Assembly (NCBI GenBank): GCA_028281625.1
Contig: JANQJN010000187.1
Coordinates: 1-32,401 of the forward strand
DNA: 32,401 bases
From: Emcibacteraceae bacterium
GTDB lineage: Bacteria > Pseudomonadota > Alphaproteobacteria > Sphingomonadales > Emcibacteraceae
Reading direction: 5' to 3'
Shown: piece after piece, positions 2,022 through 25,356 of the stretch
Layout of the letters: each line of letters opens with the position of its first letter
Position numbering within the stretch: the stretch's first letter is position 1
The notes under the pieces: model-generated
Told to the model about the DNA's origin: nothing
The model's input: the letters and a program-made list of their open reading frames with translations, nothing else
Databases searched by the model: none
Position numbers and translations under genes: made by a program

Positions 2022-2435
2022 ATGATTAATGGAATAAGTACAAGTTTATCGGGTCTACTCGCCGCATCGACACGGGCAAGCACAGCTGCCAATAACATCG
2101 TCAATGCGTTTAACACCGCTAGGCCTGCTGGCGGTGAAACATCCACCGCCGCTATACACACAGCACGTGCATACACACCCCAACGCGTGATCAACACACC
2201 ACAGAAAAACGGCGGTGTTATTGCCAATAAAGTACCGGTAAACCCTTCATCCTTAACAGTTTTTAATCCAAATGATCCCGTTGCTAACGAACGGGGCTTT
2301 GTAGACGTTCCAAACGTTGATCATGCTGTTGAGTTTTCCGAACTCATCAAAGCAAAACACGCTTACAAAGCCAATGCAGCTGTTTTAAGGACACTCGCCG
2401 AGATCGAGGATTCAGCACTGGACATCATTCGCTAA
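2022..2435 (+). CDS. Flagellar basal-body rod-like protein (FlgC-type, short)
   Basis: A 137-residue protein with the two ends typical of flagellar axial proteins. The N-terminal rod motif is SLSGLLAASTRASTAANNIVN (about residues 8-28), split here as SLSGLLAAS followed by TRASTAANNIVN. The C-terminal FlgC/FlgE/FlgG motif is NVDHAVEFSELIKAKHAYKA (about 98-117), followed by a hydrophobic heptad tail. The length fits FlgC (about 135). The middle lacks obvious FlgC-specific features, so it may be one of the short flagellar-rod-domain paralogues common in Alphaproteobacteria rather than the proximal rod protein itself. It stands apart from any flagellar cluster in this window. The Shine-Dalgarno is poorly placed: AAAGG is only one base from the ATG. 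Confidence 0.75.
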   Translation: MINGISTSLSGLLAASTRASTAANNIVNAFNTARPAGGETSTAAIHTARAYTPQRVINTPQKNGGVIANKVPVNPSSLTVFNPNDPVANERGFVDVPNVDHAVEFSELIKAKHAYKANAAVLRTLAEIEDSALDIIR

Positions 2436-2591: not shown

Positions 2592-3707
2592 ATGAGTGAT
2601 AATAAGAATACAACTGGCGAAGAAGTTCAGAATCTGATCAAACTTGCCCATGATAGTAGTAAGGATGGCCGCGCGGAACTATTCGACGGCATGACTGACT
2701 TGATTGAAACCCAGCATCAGCAGATTTCAGCCGTTGAAATCGAATTGATGATGGATATTCTTGGGAAAATTATATCCGATATTGAACTGGGCATCAGGCA
2801 AAAGCTTTCCTTGAGGCTTGCCGATAGAGACGATGTTCCTGTGGAACTCATCCTGCTCCTTGCCAATGATGAAATTGAGGTTGCAAACCCAATTCTTGTT
2901 CAGAATACACTTCTTACAGATAAAGAGCTGGTCAATATCATTCAGCGTAAATCCAGACAGCATCAGTTAAGCATTGCTGCCCGTAAGATGCTGTCTTCAG
3001 ATGTATCTAGAGAGCTTGTTAGAACTGATGACGATGGTGTGATTGTCGCCTTGCTTTCCAACCGTAGCGCAAAAATTGACAATGATACTATCGAAGAAAT
3101 TGTTGAGAAATCAAAGACCCGCGAAGTGCTACAGGCACCGCTCATAAGTCGTCATGATCTGCCAAAGCATATTGCTGCAAGGATGTATACCTGGGTATCA
3201 ATGGCACTAAAGCAGGAACTTATGGACATCCATTCTTTCACAGCTGAAGACCTGGACCAGACAATTTCTGAATCTGTCAAAGAACTAAAACAGGAAGACG
3301 CTTCAAACGCCCCACAGACCGACAATGAACAAACGCTGATTGATAAACTAAAGAAAGCGAACAAACTGCATATTTCATTCCTTATGAAAAGCTTGCGTCA
3401 AGGGAACATCAGGCTGTTTGAGCTCGCATTTGCCGAAATTCTCAATGTTCCTGAAGAAATCATGTGTAGTATCCTTTATGAACGCGGTCCTGCCGCGCTC
3501 GCCATTGCCTGCTGTGCTGCAAAAATTGACAAGTCCGTCTTTATGACCATGTTCCGTCTCACCCGTGAAGCAAAAATGATGGATACTGAGCTATCCCAGG
3601 AAGAAATCGAACATACCTATAGCCAGTTCATGAACACTAACGAACAACGCGCAAAAGCCATTTTGCACAAATGGGTTGAAGATTCATCACGTAACCCTAT
3701 ATTCTAA
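2592..3707 (+). CDS. DUF2336 domain protein (paralogue 1)
   Basis: A 371-residue soluble, alpha-helical protein with no signal peptide or membrane segment. It matches the DUF2336 family: the stretch with LSLRLADRDDVPVELILLLANDEIEVANPIL (about residues 75-105, quoted in parts: LSLRLADRDD, VPVELILLLANDEIEVANP) is the family signature. It aligns over its full length with the second DUF2336 protein at 6253-7374, sharing the VANPIL/VAQPIL motif, the HDLPKHIAARMYTWVSMAL motif and a C-terminal helical domain. HEAT-like repeats suggest a protein-protein scaffold. No biochemical function can be assigned. It precedes nadK by 38 bases and may be cotranscribed with it. Confidence 0.85.
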   Translation: MSDNKNTTGEEVQNLIKLAHDSSKDGRAELFDGMTDLIETQHQQISAVEIELMMDILGKIISDIELGIRQKLSLRLADRDDVPVELILLLANDEIEVANPILVQNTLLTDKELVNIIQRKSRQHQLSIAARKMLSSDVSRELVRTDDDGVIVALLSNRSAKIDNDTIEEIVEKSKTREVLQAPLISRHDLPKHIAARMYTWVSMALKQELMDIHSFTAEDLDQTISESVKELKQEDASNAPQTDNEQTLIDKLKKANKLHISFLMKSLRQGNIRLFELAFAEILNVPEEIMCSILYERGPAALAIACCAAKIDKSVFMTMFRLTREAKMMDTELSQEEIEHTYSQFMNTNEQRAKAILHKWVEDSSRNPIF

Positions 3708-4520: not shown

Positions 4521-6203
4521 TTAATAGAGCTTCTTAGCCAGTGGCAGAAGCACGGTAAATTCGGAACCTTCACCTACTTTACTCTTAAGCAGGATATCAC
4601 CGCCCATCTGGCGAGCCAAATGCTTGGAAATATGAAGACCAAGCCCTGTTCCCTCTTCCTTACGCGAATAAATATGACCACGGTCCTGATGGAATTTCTC
4701 AAAGACAAGGTCCTGCTGCTCTGGCGGAATGCCAATCCCCGTATCCCAAACTGTGATACCAATCACATCTTCTGCCACATGCTGGGCTCGAACACCCAAT
4801 GCTCCGCCTTCCGGTGTAAATTTAACCGCATTGCTCATCAGGTTCACAAATATTTGCGTGACCCTACGTGGGTCAACATAAATTTCCTTGTCCGTGTCCA
4901 CTTTGACACGGCTGGTATCGATATGCTTATCATTGGCACTGAGTATCACAAGATTTAATGCGCTCTCGATCACGTCAGAAACTTGCACATCGCGCTTCTC
5001 TAACTGTATTTTACCACTTTCGAGTACAGCAACATCAAGGATGTCGTTGATCAAATGCAGTAGATGACGCCCTGCATTCATAATATCATTGCTGTAGGAA
5101 ATATATTGTTCGTTCAGCTCACCAAATGACTGCAAGGTCATGGCTTCCGCAAACCCAATAATCGCGTTGAGTGGCGTTCTTAGCTCATGGCTCATGGCCG
5201 CAAGGAAATCACTTTTAGCTTCAAGGGCCGCTTCAGCTTGCTTGGTGGCAACATCAAGTTGCGCACGTTTGTCTTTGAGATCATACAGTGTATCTTCGAG
5301 TGACTTCTGCACTTTCTCCGCCTTCATCTTTGCATGATAGCTATCGGTGATATCCGTTCCAGCACCGCGGAATCCTTGGAATTCACCACTATCCACATCG
5401 AACATGGGAACACCACTAAGGTATATGTAAATGTCGTCACCTTCCTGATCTTCAAGAACCAGAAGCTGATCACGGAATGGCGCATTTTTCTGCATGATAC
5501 TTTCGCTGGTGATTTTCTCACCTTCAAAACCATTGCGAAGCTCACCGATGTTATCAATCCGGCGCCCAACCATCAGAAAGGAGGGAATGCCAGTGATCGC
5601 TGTAAAGCGGTTTGAAACGTAAGTCAGCTTCATAGACTTATCCACTTCCCAATACCAGTCGGATGTGGCGCGGGCGAAATCGCGGTAGCGCTGTTCAGTA
5701 AGCGTCGCATCTTCCGCATTGCTGTGCTTATATTGTTCAGTACAATCCGTATAGGTGCCGCCCACGGCAATGACGTAACCATCGTCATCACAGATCGGGA
5801 AATGGCGAGAACGATATTGTCTTACATTTCCGTGTATATGAAGCTGTTCTTCAACGGTCACACTGCTACGGGTAAGCTGCACTTCATTCAAAATGGAAAC
5901 CAGGCTGGAAGGAAGACGGTAATCGCCGCCTGGCTGATGGACAATTCCACCAATAGATTCGCTATCGCTTACAAGCGCGCGGTATCCGTCGTTAACATAA
6001 ACAAGTTCACCGCCGATCGTGGAAACATAGAGCGGAACCTTATCATCAAATTTCATTTTACCAAGAAGCGAATGAATCTGGTCTTTGACGGTGGGATGTT
6101 CGCTTTTCTCTAACTGATTCTTTACGAGCTTTTCAGCACGTAGCTTTTCAACGATCTCCAGTGGTATGATCGTTTTATCAGTTATGTTATTTACGTTTCT
6201 CAC
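4521..6203 (-). CDS. Soluble PAS-domain sensor histidine kinase
   Basis: A 560-residue kinase with no membrane segment. At least two PAS-like domains are present (about 55-155 and 172-285; the second ends in the PAC-like GFRGAGTDITD). A short coiled coil (285-335) and a HisKA box, FLAAMSHELRTPLNAIIGF with phospho-acceptor His339, follow. The ATPase domain has the N box NLMSNAVKF (N454-N458), the G1 box WDTGIGIPPEQ and the G2 box EGTGLGLHISK. There is no receiver domain, so its partner regulator is elsewhere. The start codon is GTG; no in-frame ATG occurs until residue 50, and residues 1-49 look coding. It lies 49 bases downstream of the DUF2336 gene and is probably cotranscribed with it. Confidence 0.93.
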   Translation of the reverse strand: MRNVNNITDKTIIPLEIVEKLRAEKLVKNQLEKSEHPTVKDQIHSLLGKMKFDDKVPLYVSTIGGELVYVNDGYRALVSDSESIGGIVHQPGGDYRLPSSLVSILNEVQLTRSSVTVEEQLHIHGNVRQYRSRHFPICDDDGYVIAVGGTYTDCTEQYKHSNAEDATLTEQRYRDFARATSDWYWEVDKSMKLTYVSNRFTAITGIPSFLMVGRRIDNIGELRNGFEGEKITSESIMQKNAPFRDQLLVLEDQEGDDIYIYLSGVPMFDVDSGEFQGFRGAGTDITDSYHAKMKAEKVQKSLEDTLYDLKDKRAQLDVATKQAEAALEAKSDFLAAMSHELRTPLNAIIGFAEAMTLQSFGELNEQYISYSNDIMNAGRHLLHLINDILDVAVLESGKIQLEKRDVQVSDVIESALNLVILSANDKHIDTSRVKVDTDKEIYVDPRRVTQIFVNLMSNAVKFTPEGGALGVRAQHVAEDVIGITVWDTGIGIPPEQQDLVFEKFHQDRGHIYSRKEEGTGLGLHISKHLARQMGGDILLKSKVGEGSEFTVLLPLAKKLY

Positions 6204-6252: not shown

Positions 6253-7374
6253 TTAACTCGCATCTTTGAGCATCATCTGCGCTTCCTGATAGTTGAAATC
6301 CCGCTGCCAGTATCTGACTGCGGCCTTCGCATTATCAGGTTTTATTCTATCATATAAATTCAACATGGTATTTAAAATTGATGTTGAACGTGCTTTTGGC
6401 CCGCTATTCGTTTGCAAAATCAGCAGGAACATTGTTGAAAACTGGCTTTTCTCAAGTCCAATTGCCCGCGAGATCACAGCAAGGCTTTCATCATTTCTTT
6501 CGCGAAGCACCCGCCAGATTATTTTGACACCAAGACCGCTAAGCTCCGCTAGAGCAGCCACTGCCACGTTGATACGTTCCTGTCGCAATGAAGTGATTAC
6601 AAATTCAAACGTTAGCTTTTTTTGTTCTGCCATGCTTCTTACCAGATTAATCGCTTTGTTCATGACACTTTCTTTTTCGTCATGTTGATTTGCAACGCTT
6701 TTGGTGACCATTTCAAGGGCATCATCAAGTGCCGTCTGATCCACGTTGAAATCCGCGACAATCTTGCGGCGCAGCGCAGCCGATACCCACCAGTACATTT
6801 TGTGAGCAAGTTCGAAAGAAAGATCATTGCGGTTCAGGAGTGGCTCCTGAAACCTATCAACCGAGCGGCTTTCCTGCACCAAATATTCAATAGACGCTTC
6901 AGAGAGTTCCGCATTTTCATTACGCACCATGGCCTCAATGACATCTTCACTACCATGTTCTATCAGCTCGTCGGTTACCTGAGTACTTACATGTGCTCGG
7001 ATCGCGATCGCCAGGCGGTGAGCGTCCGTTCTGTTTCTGATGGTTTCAATCAGGTCTTCATCTCTAAGAAGCTCGCTTTTTTCAAGAATCGGCTGCGCCA
7101 CTTCAATGTGATCATTGGCGAGCATTGTCACCAATTCCACTGACATTTCTTCAGATTCAGAGAGGCGTTCCGATAACTTTTTGCGAATTGTTTTTTCAAC
7201 GCTTTTTAGGAGCTTCACCATGATATCGTTCATGAGCACTCTTTCGTGCTCGTTCAGGCGGCCTTCAGGAGACAAAAACATATCCGAAATATTTTCCATA
7301 AGGACCTTTTTTGATCCTTCCGAATTGTCTTGCGCAAGCTTGATTAAGCCTTCTGGTGAGAGTTTGTCATTCAT
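6253..7374 (-). CDS. DUF2336 domain protein (paralogue 2)
   Basis: A 373-residue soluble helical protein, paralogous to the one at 2592-3707. Shared blocks include KLSERLSESEEMSVELVTML followed by ANDHIEVAQPIL (about residues 83-115), and NRNDLSFELAHKMYWWVSAAL (about 195-215, N-terminal residue omitted in other paralogue). The pair look like ancient duplicates rather than recent ones, with identity well below half by eye. It is transcribed toward a PAS histidine kinase 49 bases downstream, so a role in that signalling pathway is plausible but is inferred only from position. No strong Shine-Dalgarno is visible before the ATG. Confidence 0.85.
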   Translation of the reverse strand: MNDKLSPEGLIKLAQDNSEGSKKVLMENISDMFLSPEGRLNEHERVLMNDIMVKLLKSVEKTIRKKLSERLSESEEMSVELVTMLANDHIEVAQPILEKSELLRDEDLIETIRNRTDAHRLAIAIRAHVSTQVTDELIEHGSEDVIEAMVRNENAELSEASIEYLVQESRSVDRFQEPLLNRNDLSFELAHKMYWWVSAALRRKIVADFNVDQTALDDALEMVTKSVANQHDEKESVMNKAINLVRSMAEQKKLTFEFVITSLRQERINVAVAALAELSGLGVKIIWRVLRERNDESLAVISRAIGLEKSQFSTMFLLILQTNSGPKARSTSILNTMLNLYDRIKPDNAKAAVRYWQRDFNYQEAQMMLKDAS

Positions 7375-10999: not shown

Positions 11000-12220
11000 T
11001 TATACCTTTATCCTCGTCAAGTAAGGCTTCAAACAATTGGCGGTGTGATACGCATGGCCGCCCGTCTGGTTTGAATATTCAGTGTTGGTAATTTCTTCGT
11101 CGCCGTCTCTGCCAATGATGGTCACCATGTCACCTATTTCAATATCGTCTGACCCGGTAACATCAATGGAAGTATGGTTCGCAGTGATAAGTGCAATCAT
11201 CGGGTATTTTCTACCCTTAATTATGACATTCGCGTTATTCACACTACTTAGCGAAAACCCGTCCGAGTATCCAAGCGGCAATGTTGCAATGCGCATTGGC
11301 TTTTCAATTTTATAGGCTTGGTGATAACCAATGGATTCGCCAGGCTCCATATCCTTTACATAGATTACCCTGGTCTTAACCCCAAGCACCGGCTTGATAT
11401 CCATATTGGGCATGGGCTCCAGGCCAACGAGAGAGCTTCCCGGACGCACCATATCCAAATGCGCGTTTGGATCATGATCCACTTCTGCACTGCTTGCCGC
11501 GTGCCTGATCCCCAGATCAATCCCCTTTGCCTTGGCATTTTCGTAAACTGCATTTAGCCTATCGATTTGAATTGGATTAAAATCGGCATCTTCGGTCATG
11601 GCAGTGAGCACGCCTTCTATTTCAACATGCGAAAGCGCTGCCACTTTTTCCACAAATGCGTCGGCAATTTTATAAGGCACCCCTACCCGACCAAGGCCAG
11701 TATCGATTTTGATGTGGACTTTTGCTTTGCGGTCGAGCTTTCTTGCTTCTTCGTTAAGAATATCCACCGCATCAGAAAAAACAGACTGGCTGATGTCATG
11801 TGTGATCGCTGTACGGGCATCACGAGCGGAAAAAGGACCAAGGTTAAGGATCATGCCCTGAACATTATTGTGGCGAAGCAGTTCCCCTTCATCCATTTTT
11901 ACGACGGCGAAGCGATCAATACCTTCGAGCCACATGCTCTGCGCTATTTCCACAATCCCGTGGCCATAAGCGTTACATTTGATCACCGCCATAATTGGTC
12001 GTCCATCAATTTTCTTACGAACTTCCGCTATGTTGTGACTGAGATTATCGATGTTAAGCTCGACCCATGTATCAAACTGATCCTCGACAGTTTGTGGCGG
12101 TGGTCCGGCCATTCCTTCTTCCTGCGCACGCGCCATAGTCGCTGCCGTTCCAGTCAAGATCACACCTGCCGATGTGGTGCTAGCCAGTTTTATAAAATCA
12201 CGTCTGTTTGTTTTAGTCAT
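11000..12220 (-). CDS. Tat-exported alanine-racemase-family protein (copy B)
   Basis: A 406-residue fold-type III PLP racemase with a twin-arginine signal: NRRDFIKL at residues 5-12, a hydrophobic stretch, and an ARA cleavage site near 32. The PLP lysine is K81 in VIKCNAYGHG. The catalytic tyrosine region is ESIGYHQAY, and MVRPGSSLVGL carries the PLP-ring arginine. Export through Tat means it folds with its cofactor inside and acts in the periplasm, unlike housekeeping Alr. It likely racemises free amino acids; the substrate range is unknown. The ATG matches the N-terminus of copy A; a GTG three codons earlier (12229) directly follows the stop of copy A. It is translated right after copy A. 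Confidence 0.9.
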   Translation of the reverse strand: MTKTNRRDFIKLASTTSAGVILTGTAATMARAQEEGMAGPPPQTVEDQFDTWVELNIDNLSHNIAEVRKKIDGRPIMAVIKCNAYGHGIVEIAQSMWLEGIDRFAVVKMDEGELLRHNNVQGMILNLGPFSARDARTAITHDISQSVFSDAVDILNEEARKLDRKAKVHIKIDTGLGRVGVPYKIADAFVEKVAALSHVEIEGVLTAMTEDADFNPIQIDRLNAVYENAKAKGIDLGIRHAASSAEVDHDPNAHLDMVRPGSSLVGLEPMPNMDIKPVLGVKTRVIYVKDMEPGESIGYHQAYKIEKPMRIATLPLGYSDGFSLSSVNNANVIIKGRKYPMIALITANHTSIDVTGSDDIEIGDMVTIIGRDGDEEITNTEYSNQTGGHAYHTANCLKPYLTRIKV

Positions 12221-12229
12221 TTTTTTCAC

Positions 12230-13453
12230 TTATATGGTTAGTCTTGTAAGTCCTGCCTTGATAGCGCTTGCCCGGTAGTAAGAATGCCCTTCCGTTTTTG
12301 AAGCCATCTCTGAAGCCTTTATCTGCTCATCACCTTCACTGCCAATAAGGGTTACGATATCGCCTATCTTTATATCTGTCGATCCCGTTATATCGACAAT
12401 AGTATGATTGGCTGTTACGGCAGCAATTACAGGATATCTTTTTCCACTAATGAGTACATCCAAATTCCCCGGCGCACCAAATGGATATCCGTCTGAATAA
12501 CCAACAGGCAAAGTTGCTACCCTCATCGGCCGTTCTACTTCATAAACCTGTCGATAGCCGATGGTTTTTCCAGGCATGAGATCCTTAATATATTGTACCC
12601 TGGTCTTAAAGGACATGATCGGGCTGACATTCAGATCCCCATGGCGCGCAAGACCAGTGAGCGAGGCACCGGGCCTAACCATATCAAGCAATGAACTCTC
12701 GGGCAGGAAGGCGATCCCTGCACTTGATGCCGCATGTCGAAGTCCCACATTGATACCTTTTGCCCTGGCGCCATCAGTCACTTCAACAAAGCGATCAATT
12801 TGCGGCTGATCGAAAGGTCTATTTTCAGCAAGCACTGTATAAACACCTTCAATTTCAATATCTTCCATCACCGCGACTTTTTCAATAAAAGGCAGCGCTT
12901 CTTCATACGGCACGCCAATCCGGCTCATACCGGTATCTACTTCAATATGAACTTTTGCTTTGCGGCCTAGCTTTCTTGCCTCTGCGGCAAGAATATCCAC
13001 AGTTTCCGAAAAAACAGCCTGACTGATATTATGAGTAATAGCTGTTCTGGCGTTTCGCGCTGAAAAAGGCCCTACATTCAAGATCATACCTTCAACACCT
13101 TCATGGCGCAGTAATTCGCCTTCGTCCATTTTTACGACCATGAAATGTTCAACACCCTGCGCTGCAAGCCCTTTTGTCACGTCGACAATACCATGGCCGT
13201 ACGCATTACACTTGACCACCGCCATAATCGGACGACTGCCTACCCGGCTTTTTACTTCGGCTAAATTATGATTAAGCTGGTCAATATCAAGCTCAACCCA
13301 GGCATCAAACTGATCTTCAACGGTTTGCGCCGGTGGTCCGGCCGTTCCTTCTTCTTGTGCTCTGGCCATCGTAGCGATTGTTCCGCTAAGCACTACGCCA
13401 GCGGACACAGAGCTGGCCAGTTTCATAAAATCCCGTCTGTTACTATCGGTCAT
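12230..13453 (-). CDS. Tat-exported alanine-racemase-family protein (copy A)
   Basis: A 407-residue paralogue of the following gene, similar along its whole length (both contain RPIMAV-KCNAYGHGIV, VKMDEGELLRH and FSAR-ARTAITH blocks). The twin-arginine signal NRRDFMKL lies at residues 5-12 and the ARA cleavage site near 32, after which the mature chain starts QEEGTAGPP. PLP lysine is K81; the active-site tyrosine region is KTIGYRQVY; the MVRPGASLTGL motif is present. AGGGGGC precedes the ATG. The stop is contiguous with the start region of copy B. It follows an alpha/beta hydrolase by 9 bases, so the three genes form one operon. The broad-specificity periplasmic racemases of gamma-proteobacteria are a functional analogue, but those use Sec. 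Confidence 0.9.
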   Translation of the reverse strand: MTDSNRRDFMKLASSVSAGVVLSGTIATMARAQEEGTAGPPAQTVEDQFDAWVELDIDQLNHNLAEVKSRVGSRPIMAVVKCNAYGHGIVDVTKGLAAQGVEHFMVVKMDEGELLRHEGVEGMILNVGPFSARNARTAITHNISQAVFSETVDILAAEARKLGRKAKVHIEVDTGMSRIGVPYEEALPFIEKVAVMEDIEIEGVYTVLAENRPFDQPQIDRFVEVTDGARAKGINVGLRHAASSAGIAFLPESSLLDMVRPGASLTGLARHGDLNVSPIMSFKTRVQYIKDLMPGKTIGYRQVYEVERPMRVATLPVGYSDGYPFGAPGNLDVLISGKRYPVIAAVTANHTIVDITGSTDIKIGDIVTLIGSEGDEQIKASEMASKTEGHSYYRASAIKAGLTRLTI

Positions 13454-17744: not shown

Positions 17745-18767
17745 TTACCACCTTAAAAGGCAGGCGCCCCAGGTGAATCCACCACCCATAGCTTCGAGAA
17801 TCAGTATATCTCCCTTACCGATTCGGCCATCTTTGACCGCTACATCAAGTGCAAGAGGTATCGATGCTGCTGAAGTATTTGCATGATCCTGTACGGTTAC
17901 AACGACCTTTTCAGGATCTACTTTTAGCTTTCTGGCAGTGCCATCAAGGATGCGTTTGTTTGCCTGATGAGGTACAATCCAGTCGACATCTGATGAGGTC
18001 ATGTCACAATCTTCCAGCACCTCCCCTACAACTGATGCGAGATTAACAACAGCATGACGGAAGACCTCCCCTACAACTGATGCGAGATTAACAACAGCAT
18101 GACGGAAGACCTCCCTACCCTTCATGCGAAGGTGACCAATGGTCCCAGTCGACGAGACACCACCATCGACATAAAGCAGTTCATTATACCTTCCGTCAGA
18201 ATGAATACGTGAAGCGAGCATTCCTTGGTCGGTGTTTTCACCTGATCCTTCTTGCGCTGTTAAAACAACTGCGCCCGCACCATCCCCGAAAAGAACGCAC
18301 GTGGTTCTATCTTCCCAATCAAGGATACGGGAAAATATTTCTGCTCCAATGACAAGTACATTTTTAGCTTGTCCTGCTTTAATAAAATTGTCGGCCGTGG
18401 TTAGCGCGTAAACAAAACCAGAGCAAACCGCCTGGACATCAAATGCAGCACCCTTGGTTATACCAAGCTTGCGCTGTACGGTAGTTGCCGTTGAAGGAAA
18501 GGTTTGATCTGCTGTCGACGTAGCAACAACAATAAGATCAATATCGACTGCGTCCATCCTGGCACTTTCGAGCGCTCGTGTCGCGGCCTTTACCGCCAGA
18601 TCAGATGTCACCTCATCCTCAGCGGCAATATGACGCCGTTTTATGCCGGTACGCTCAATAATCCATTCATCTGACGTATCAACAGTTTTTTCCAAGTCGG
18701 AATTCGTAAGAATTTTTTCGGGAAGATAAGATCCCGTTCCTGTAACAACAGAACGAATGACGCTCAT
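17745..18767 (-). CDS. fabH: Beta-ketoacyl-ACP synthase III with an internal 15-residue duplication
   Basis: A 340-residue FabH, which condenses acetyl-CoA with malonyl-ACP to start fatty-acid synthesis. The catalytic triad is present: C115 ([12 protein letters not shown]), H267 (VPHQANKRI) and N297 (HANTSAAS). The C-terminal [16 protein letters not shown] is canonical. Family length is about 325; the excess is an exact repeat, [15 protein letters not shown] at 220-234 and again at 235-249, inside the helix preceding the His267 strand. Its ATG overlaps the plsX stop by one base (TAATG). Whether this copy is fully active is uncertain. Confidence 0.95.
18019..18108. repeat. 45-bp perfect tandem duplication inside fabH
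   Basis: Two identical 45-bp units, 18019-18063 and 18064-18108, are directly adjacent. A further 7-base match (ACCTCCC at 18109-18115) follows. The short flanking homology is what replication slippage would leave. The unit is a multiple of three, so the frame is kept. Confidence 0.97.
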
Positions 18768-24217: not shown

Positions 24218-25356
24218 TATTCGCTGTCCTTTTTTACTATTTTAAGATCAAGATTTTCATCAAAGCGCTGATGGCCGATAATATTAAGGCCGTAGCCTTC
24301 AATACCAATCACATGCTGTTCACTATCGGAAAGCAAAACGAAGTCTTTGACACCCAAATCCAGCAATATTTGCGCGCCAATACCGTAGTTTTTGATATTG
24401 GGGGATTTTTTCTTGGCCTTTTGATCCTTCTTGGCAATTTCATCCGTGATGTAAGTCTTTCTGTTTTCGCGAAGAAAAACCATCACACCGCATTCTTCTT
24501 TGCCAAGTTCTTCCATAGCACGATTGCACTGGCTGCGACGTGGTCCGTGCTGACCCAGAAGATCTTCAAAAATATTAAAGGAATGCATCCGGACCAGTAC
24601 ACGTTTCGCTGTTTTTGGGTTTCCCTTTACAAGCGCGAAATGCTGAATGCCGTCATCCTTGGCAAGATAGGCCCGCATGGAAAATTTGCCGCCAAATTCT
24701 GAATCAACCTCTGTGGTATCAATGCATTCCACCAAATTATCATTACGGCGACGATAAGCGATCAAATCAGCAATAGTTGCCACTTTCAAATTGTGTTTCT
24801 TGGCAAATTCAACCAGATCCGGCAGACGCGCCATAGTACCGTCATCCTTCATGATTTCGCAAATAACGCCGGAGGGGATAAGTCCCGCAAGTCTCGCAAC
24901 ATCAACCGCCGCTTCCGTATGACCCGCACGCACAAGCACGCCGCCGCGACGAGCAACAATTGGAAATACATGACCGGGGGTGACAATATCTTCTTTGTCT
25001 TTGGTTGGATCTATGGCAACCGCAATAGTGTGGGCACGGTCCGCCGCTGAAATACCAGTGGTGACCCCTTCCGCTGCTTCAATAGAAGTAGTGAAGGCTG
25101 TCTGATGTCGAGTGGCATTTTTCTGCGACATCATTTGAAGACCTAGATCCTGAGATCTGCGCGCGGTAAGCGCCAGACAAATGAGCCCGCGACCATGGGT
25201 CGCCATAAAATTAATCGCGTCCGGTGTCGCCATTTGAGACGGAATTATAAGATCCCCTTCGTTTTCACGATCTTCATCATCCACCAGGATAAACATTCTG
25301 CCATTCTTGGCGTCTTCCAAAACATCCTCTATAGGGGAAAGGAAATTATGAGGCAT
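24217..25356 (-). CDS. ribBA: RibBA-type protein: DHBP synthase with a degenerate GTP cyclohydrolase II domain
   Basis: A 379-residue two-domain protein. The N-terminal RibB domain (1-200) is complete: VDDEDRENEGDLII (25-38), MATHGRGLICLAL, and GHVFPIVARRGGVLVRAGHT followed by EAAVD. The C-terminal RibA-like domain (about 210-370) keeps KNYGIGAQILLDLGV. At the zinc site, where HSEC is expected, HSFN (258-261) is found, and the later CxC is reduced to SQC (275-277). Two of the three zinc cysteines thus look lost. It probably supplies 3,4-dihydroxybutanone phosphate only, with GTP cyclohydrolase II made elsewhere. Coupled to ribH. Confidence 0.93.
   Translation of the reverse strand: MPHNFLSPIEDVLEDAKNGRMFILVDDEDRENEGDLIIPSQMATPDAINFMATHGRGLICLALTARRSQDLGLQMMSQKNATRHQTAFTTSIEAAEGVTTGISAADRAHTIAVAIDPTKDKEDIVTPGHVFPIVARRGGVLVRAGHTEAAVDVARLAGLIPSGVICEIMKDDGTMARLPDLVEFAKKHNLKVATIADLIAYRRRNDNLVECIDTTEVDSEFGGKFSMRAYLAKDDGIQHFALVKGNPKTAKRVLVRMHSFNIFEDLLGQHGPRRSQCNRAMEELGKEECGVMVFLRENRKTYITDEIAKKDQKAKKKSPNIKNYGIGAQILLDLGVKDFVLLSDSEQHVIGIEGYGLNIIGHQRFDENLDLKIVKKDSE

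Follow-up and report, generated by a model that had tools for sequence, protein, structure and literature searches.

An exact in-frame 45-bp tandem duplication within the single fabH detected in an Emcibacterales-like genome assembly

Beta-ketoacyl-acyl carrier protein (ACP) synthase III, known as FabH or KAS III, is a fatty-acid-initiating enzyme that condenses acetyl-CoA with malonyl-ACP and is represented by structures from Escherichia coli (1hn9, 6x7r) and Neisseria (4ryb). FabH catalysis is reported to require ordering of the active-site loops (PMC9979976); Phe213 of the E. coli enzyme has been assigned to the tunnel entrance, and loop 185-217 is counted as one of four interface loops (PMC10809239). 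The present work concerns the fabH gene of an uncultured, Emcibacterales-like alphaproteobacterium (NCBI places the Emcibacteraceae in the Emcibacterales), located in a DNA stretch of 32,401 nucleotides (contig JANQJN010000187.1 of assembly GCA_028281625.1), hereafter the window. Its product differs from the known enzymes in the segment leading from the M-x-G motif to the PHQA motif, which comprises 48 residues instead of 33, the additional 15 being duplicated. We consider it probable that this is a genuine and young in-frame duplication, born of slippage in the sole fabH found, with an uncertain effect on the enzyme. Both the type of change and the enzyme are well known.

The exact in-frame 45-bp tandem duplication announced in an earlier note on this DNA is indeed present: the two copies (18019-18063 and 18064-18108) follow each other head-to-tail, are identical base for base, and each encodes the same 15 residues, doubled at residues 220-249. 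Tandem Repeats Finder reports a single array (18019-18115) with a period of 45, 2.2 copies, 100% match and zero indels, and the exact match of 52 bp is far beyond chance. Any phase of the unit within the array is equivalent; the interval 18019..18108 given in the earlier note does delimit identical copies, although the units in codon phase lie two bases away (Table 1). The 340-residue product belongs to the FabH/KAS III family, with matches above the cut-offs of the curated family models NF006829 (453.8 bits, cut-off 249) and TIGR00747 (421.6 bits, cut-off 292.1), the Pfam domains PF08545 and PF08541, and a thiolase-like KAS III fold. Its catalytic triad (Cys115, His267 and Asn297) is intact and invariant with 52 aligned relatives, the roles being assigned by alignment to Cys112, His244 and Asn274 of E. 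coli. His267 is the catalytic histidine of the PHQAN motif, at the very number previously proposed, and the duplication precedes the strand carrying this motif, as had also been claimed.

The comparison covered 109 other loci, made up of 29 from relatives and 80 retained out of 589 confirmed in a genome collection; eight genes are common to both sets, leaving 101 distinct FabH sequences, and 52 of the 80 collection loci formed the alignment used for conserved columns. All 29 nearest loci (L003-L031) encode a FabH of 325 residues (978 bases including the stop), which bears out the earlier statement that 340 residues is 15 above the usual length. Moreover, the spacing from M-x-G to PHQA is 33 residues in every one of the 109 loci, as it is in E. 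coli (residues 210-242), a conserved trait though not a defining one for the family, and none of the 109 carries the duplication, which is private to this genome among the relatives examined. The possibility, also raised at the outset, that relatives share the same insert as an old lineage trait was rejected on this count (0 of 109). Across the order, 261 of 296 genomes, this one included, matched fabH at E 1e-60, and among the matches listed no span exceeds 978 bases except that of this genome (1,020), as read by eye. Of the relatives found, G004 (locus L003) is the nearest: its FabH shares 89.5% identity with the present one over 325 aligned residues, and the synonymous divergence (dS) is about 1.65. 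The FabH of five of the genus loci (L006, L007, L010, L011 and L013) also occurs in named bins of the collection, labelled Kordiimonadaceae, Emcibacteraceae or Alphaproteobacteria; UBA4441 is one of these bins. In the open-licence literature, judged by title and start of the abstract, no FabH with a tandem duplication was found.

The matched run is 52 bp long, so a 7-bp direct repeat, GGGAGGT, bounds the unit. For blind joins at offsets of 30-60 bp, an end homology of at least 7 bases is found at 0.065% of the positions in the window (none at offset 45, and 0.26% at the offset with the highest value), the random-end expectation being 0.038%. This rarity points to slipped mispairing or template switching, not to a blind join. 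At the same place, the 11 genus loci, which are unduplicated, have direct repeats of 2, 2, 3, 4, 5, 5, 6, 6, 8, 8 and 10 bp (5-10 bp in 7 of the 11). Such repeats are present because the helix opens and closes with Glu-Val, 15 residues apart, the 2-bp ones arising from the two Glu codons alone. We propose that the second unit would have arisen when two 7-bp direct repeats, spaced at a distance of 45 bp, mispaired by slippage or served for a template switch, this helix with Glu-Val at both ends having supplied the repeats. Regarding its age, the unit holds 12.3 synonymous sites, over which the absence of any difference sets an upper bound of about 0.24 per site (95%) on the divergence between the copies, and close repeats can stay alike through conversion. 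The duplication is young relative to the divergence from the nearest relative and not necessarily an event of the last passage; the wording "very recent" used previously is overstated, since 45 bp cannot demonstrate it.

Table 1. Coordinates of fabH, its upstream neighbour and the repeat elements in the window
Feature	Position	Strand	Basis or use
fabH, beta-ketoacyl-ACP synthase III, with duplicated segment	17745..18767	minus	340-residue open reading frame and family profile matches
Unit copy 1 (5'), codon phase, residues 220-234	18066..18110	minus	sequence, identical copies
Unit copy 2, codon phase, residues 235-249	18021..18065	minus	base-for-base identity to copy 1
Full period-45 run, 97 bp	18019..18115	minus	52 matched bases, that is the unit plus 7
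7-bp direct repeat GGGAGGT	18109-18115, 18064-18070, 18019-18025	minus	derived from the 52-base run
plsX-like gene (which we take to be plsX from its sequence and position), directly upstream of fabH, one base common with the fabH start codon	18767..19870	minus	control gene for nonsynonymous divergence (dN)

The rest of fabH looks constrained and seems to be under purifying selection. Where dS could be computed, in 8 of the 11 comparisons with genus loci, the omega (dN/dS) of fabH ranges from 0.034 to 0.084 (no dS was returned against L006, L010 and L011). The ratio of dN in fabH to dN in plsX, divided by hand, goes from 0.89 to 1.82 over the 11 comparisons of this genome, inside the range obtained for 55 pairs of genus-mates (0.81 to 2.25, median 1.17). 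The protein departs from columns conserved at 85% or more at two places, and in each case 4 of the 52 relatives have the same residue. Gene decay was rejected on the purifying selection in the eight computable comparisons and the normal dN ratio to plsX. The earlier note had suggested that a second FabH elsewhere might relieve selection. Profile searches of the assembly (96.14% complete, 205 contigs) returned one match apiece for PF08541 and PF08545, no second FabH, and zero matches to the malonyl-ACP decarboxylase (Mad) domain PF09500, about 4% of the genome being possibly missing. One full-length FabF (fabF model, PF00109) was found, as well as two short, partial PF00109 matches in open reading frames of 421 and 404 codons, covering 36-40 of the 252 positions and scoring 24.3 and 22.7 bits against a cut-off of 20.8. 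With a single FabH and no PF09500 match, relief of selection by a backup enzyme is unsupported.

At the protein level, the insert falls between the equivalents of E. coli Gly209 and Glu211-Val212-Phe213. An AlphaFold model predicts that the FabH fold is kept, with the extra residues as a low-confidence loop at the mouth of the substrate tunnel, the copy looped out being dictated by the input alignment. One copy would form the native helix, the other 15 residues would most likely be extruded at the start of the helix, beside the tunnel mouth, and the catalytic triad would stay intact. The duplicated FabH is probably still a working enzyme, perhaps with a slower ordering of its active-site loops.

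Several points weigh against a genuine slippage duplication and the loop placement proposed for it. The duplication is known from one assembled sequence alone. The length of the segment is invariant in all 109 loci and in E. coli, so that little tolerance for an insert would be expected here, and damage to the enzyme should come at a high cost, neither a backup FabH nor Mad having been found. The repeat at that site is only 2-4 bp long in 4 of the 11 genus loci; as the site was chosen for its repeat, the homology is no unbiased test, and a chimera formed by polymerase chain reaction or other amplification would leave the same 7-bp signature. Finally, the placement of the loop was set by an alignment gap at residues 219-233 in all 52 rows, and AlphaFold is no stability test.

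The main competing explanation, which we regard as possible and somewhat unlikely, is an artefact: library amplification or assembly and scaffolding, for example two contigs with a 45-bp overlap joined end to end, would have made the duplication, and the cell would contain a single unit. The draft state of the assembly in 205 contigs, the zero differences between copies, and an insert private to one genome within a segment of invariant length would all fit such an origin; the assembly also contains the region just once, which leaves no other allele for comparison. However, a blind end-to-end join rarely falls on 7-bp direct repeats, the reading frame is preserved (a 1 in 3 chance), and de Bruijn assemblers do not create junction k-mers of their own. 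Furthermore, the fabH duplication is the sole exact tandem repeat in 516,142 bases sampled from the assembly (40 stretches including the contig of the window, 5,809 of the bases being N), with units of 6-500 bp and a matched run of 18 bp or more that also covers one unit or more; no second case occurred in the 40 stretches, and systematic duplication by the assembly was rejected on that ground. For comparison, the loci L001-L111 (510,573 bases; units of 12-400 bp, run of at least 20) hold, besides the copies of this genome itself (L001, L002), two short repeats with units of 16 and 12 bp.

A second explanation accepts the same origin as the favoured reading and gives the duplication a different fate. 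The allele would be real but harmful or transient, picked up when a mixed population was collapsed into one consensus, and reverting by recombination between the 52-bp repeats. Direct repeats of such size are unstable, and the invariant segment length and the want of a second FabH or Mad in the assembly argue for this scenario as well; the remainder of fabH is without decay, which argues against it, and we find it unlikely. We hold as quite improbable that the duplication is adaptive, a special case of a real one, in which the duplicated helix would provide a new tunnel-mouth loop that alters acyl-CoA choice, the docking of ACP or gating, meaning the switch between order and disorder when acetyl-CoA binds, in an organism for which no further initiator is apparent. 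The position of the insert, beside the equivalent of Phe213 at the tunnel entrance and within the region of interface loop 185-217 (PMC10809239), together with the need for active-site loops to order for catalysis (PMC9979976), would agree with it. Short duplications are also said to act so in some other enzymes. On the other side stand the single genome, conserved columns with no change suggestive of a new specificity, and a loop placement that was not independently predicted.

In the order, eight near-complete genomes of one family, f5 (G035, G041, G047, G052, G056, G060, G064 and G068), were tested from the 14 without a match among those listed. All eight are devoid of a FabH above the TIGR00747 cut-off, having only weaker KAS III-like matches, in an adjacent pair in seven, and PF09500 in two. 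Neutrality, with another enzyme initiating fatty-acid synthesis, is the least probable explanation: FabH is dispensable within the order, as these eight genomes indicate, and E. coli fabH-deletion strains survive through the malonyl-ACP decarboxylase yiiD (PMC8666670), but PF09500 has no match in this assembly, in which FabH and full-length FabF each occur once, and its fabH appears otherwise to be under purifying selection. The transient, adaptive and neutral explanations all share a real origin and overlap with the favoured one, so that the odds we assign exceed a sum of one.

Other features of the window were recorded. Two adjacent alanine-racemase paralogues on the minus strand (11000-12229 and 12230-13453; PF01168 and PF00842) are 60% identical, and both open, by eye, with an RRDF-type twin-arginine-like leader. 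Two DUF2336 genes (PF10098), at 2592-3707 on the plus strand and 6253-7374 on the minus strand, flank a minus-strand gene (4521-6203) that by eye resembles a PAS sensor histidine kinase. An imperfect 18-bp tandem repeat (24410-24445, 2 copies, 83% matches) lies inside a gene that by eye resembles ribBA, and a 137-residue protein (2022-2435, plus strand) has a single Pfam match, to the C-terminal flagellar rod domain (PF06429).

If the duplication is real, it offers a natural test of insertion tolerance in a length-constrained, substrate-gating part of FabH, in a genome with no second initiator found; a protein-level echo, Glu-Val recurring 15 residues apart, would have created a slip-prone DNA site. 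If it is an artefact, it advises caution in calling private in-frame duplications of draft genomes innovations. Slipped mispairing at short direct repeats was reportedly set out by Levinson and Gutman in 1987. Our fabH has the features of a slippage-born duplication, namely exact head-to-tail copies, a short (7-bp) direct repeat at the unit ends and unduplicated relatives, and is known here from an assembly alone. The closest parallel in kind is that of the KPC beta-lactamases, for which one report lists 42 in-frame duplication variants of 3-84 bp, all multiples of 3, attributed to slippage when short or to microhomology-mediated replication when over 10 bp (PMC12593533). The likeness lies in the short in-frame tandem duplication; in contrast, KPC as described there is a drug-resistance enzyme with many variants under drug selection, whereas FabH is a housekeeping enzyme, duplicated in one genome and under no known selection for the change.
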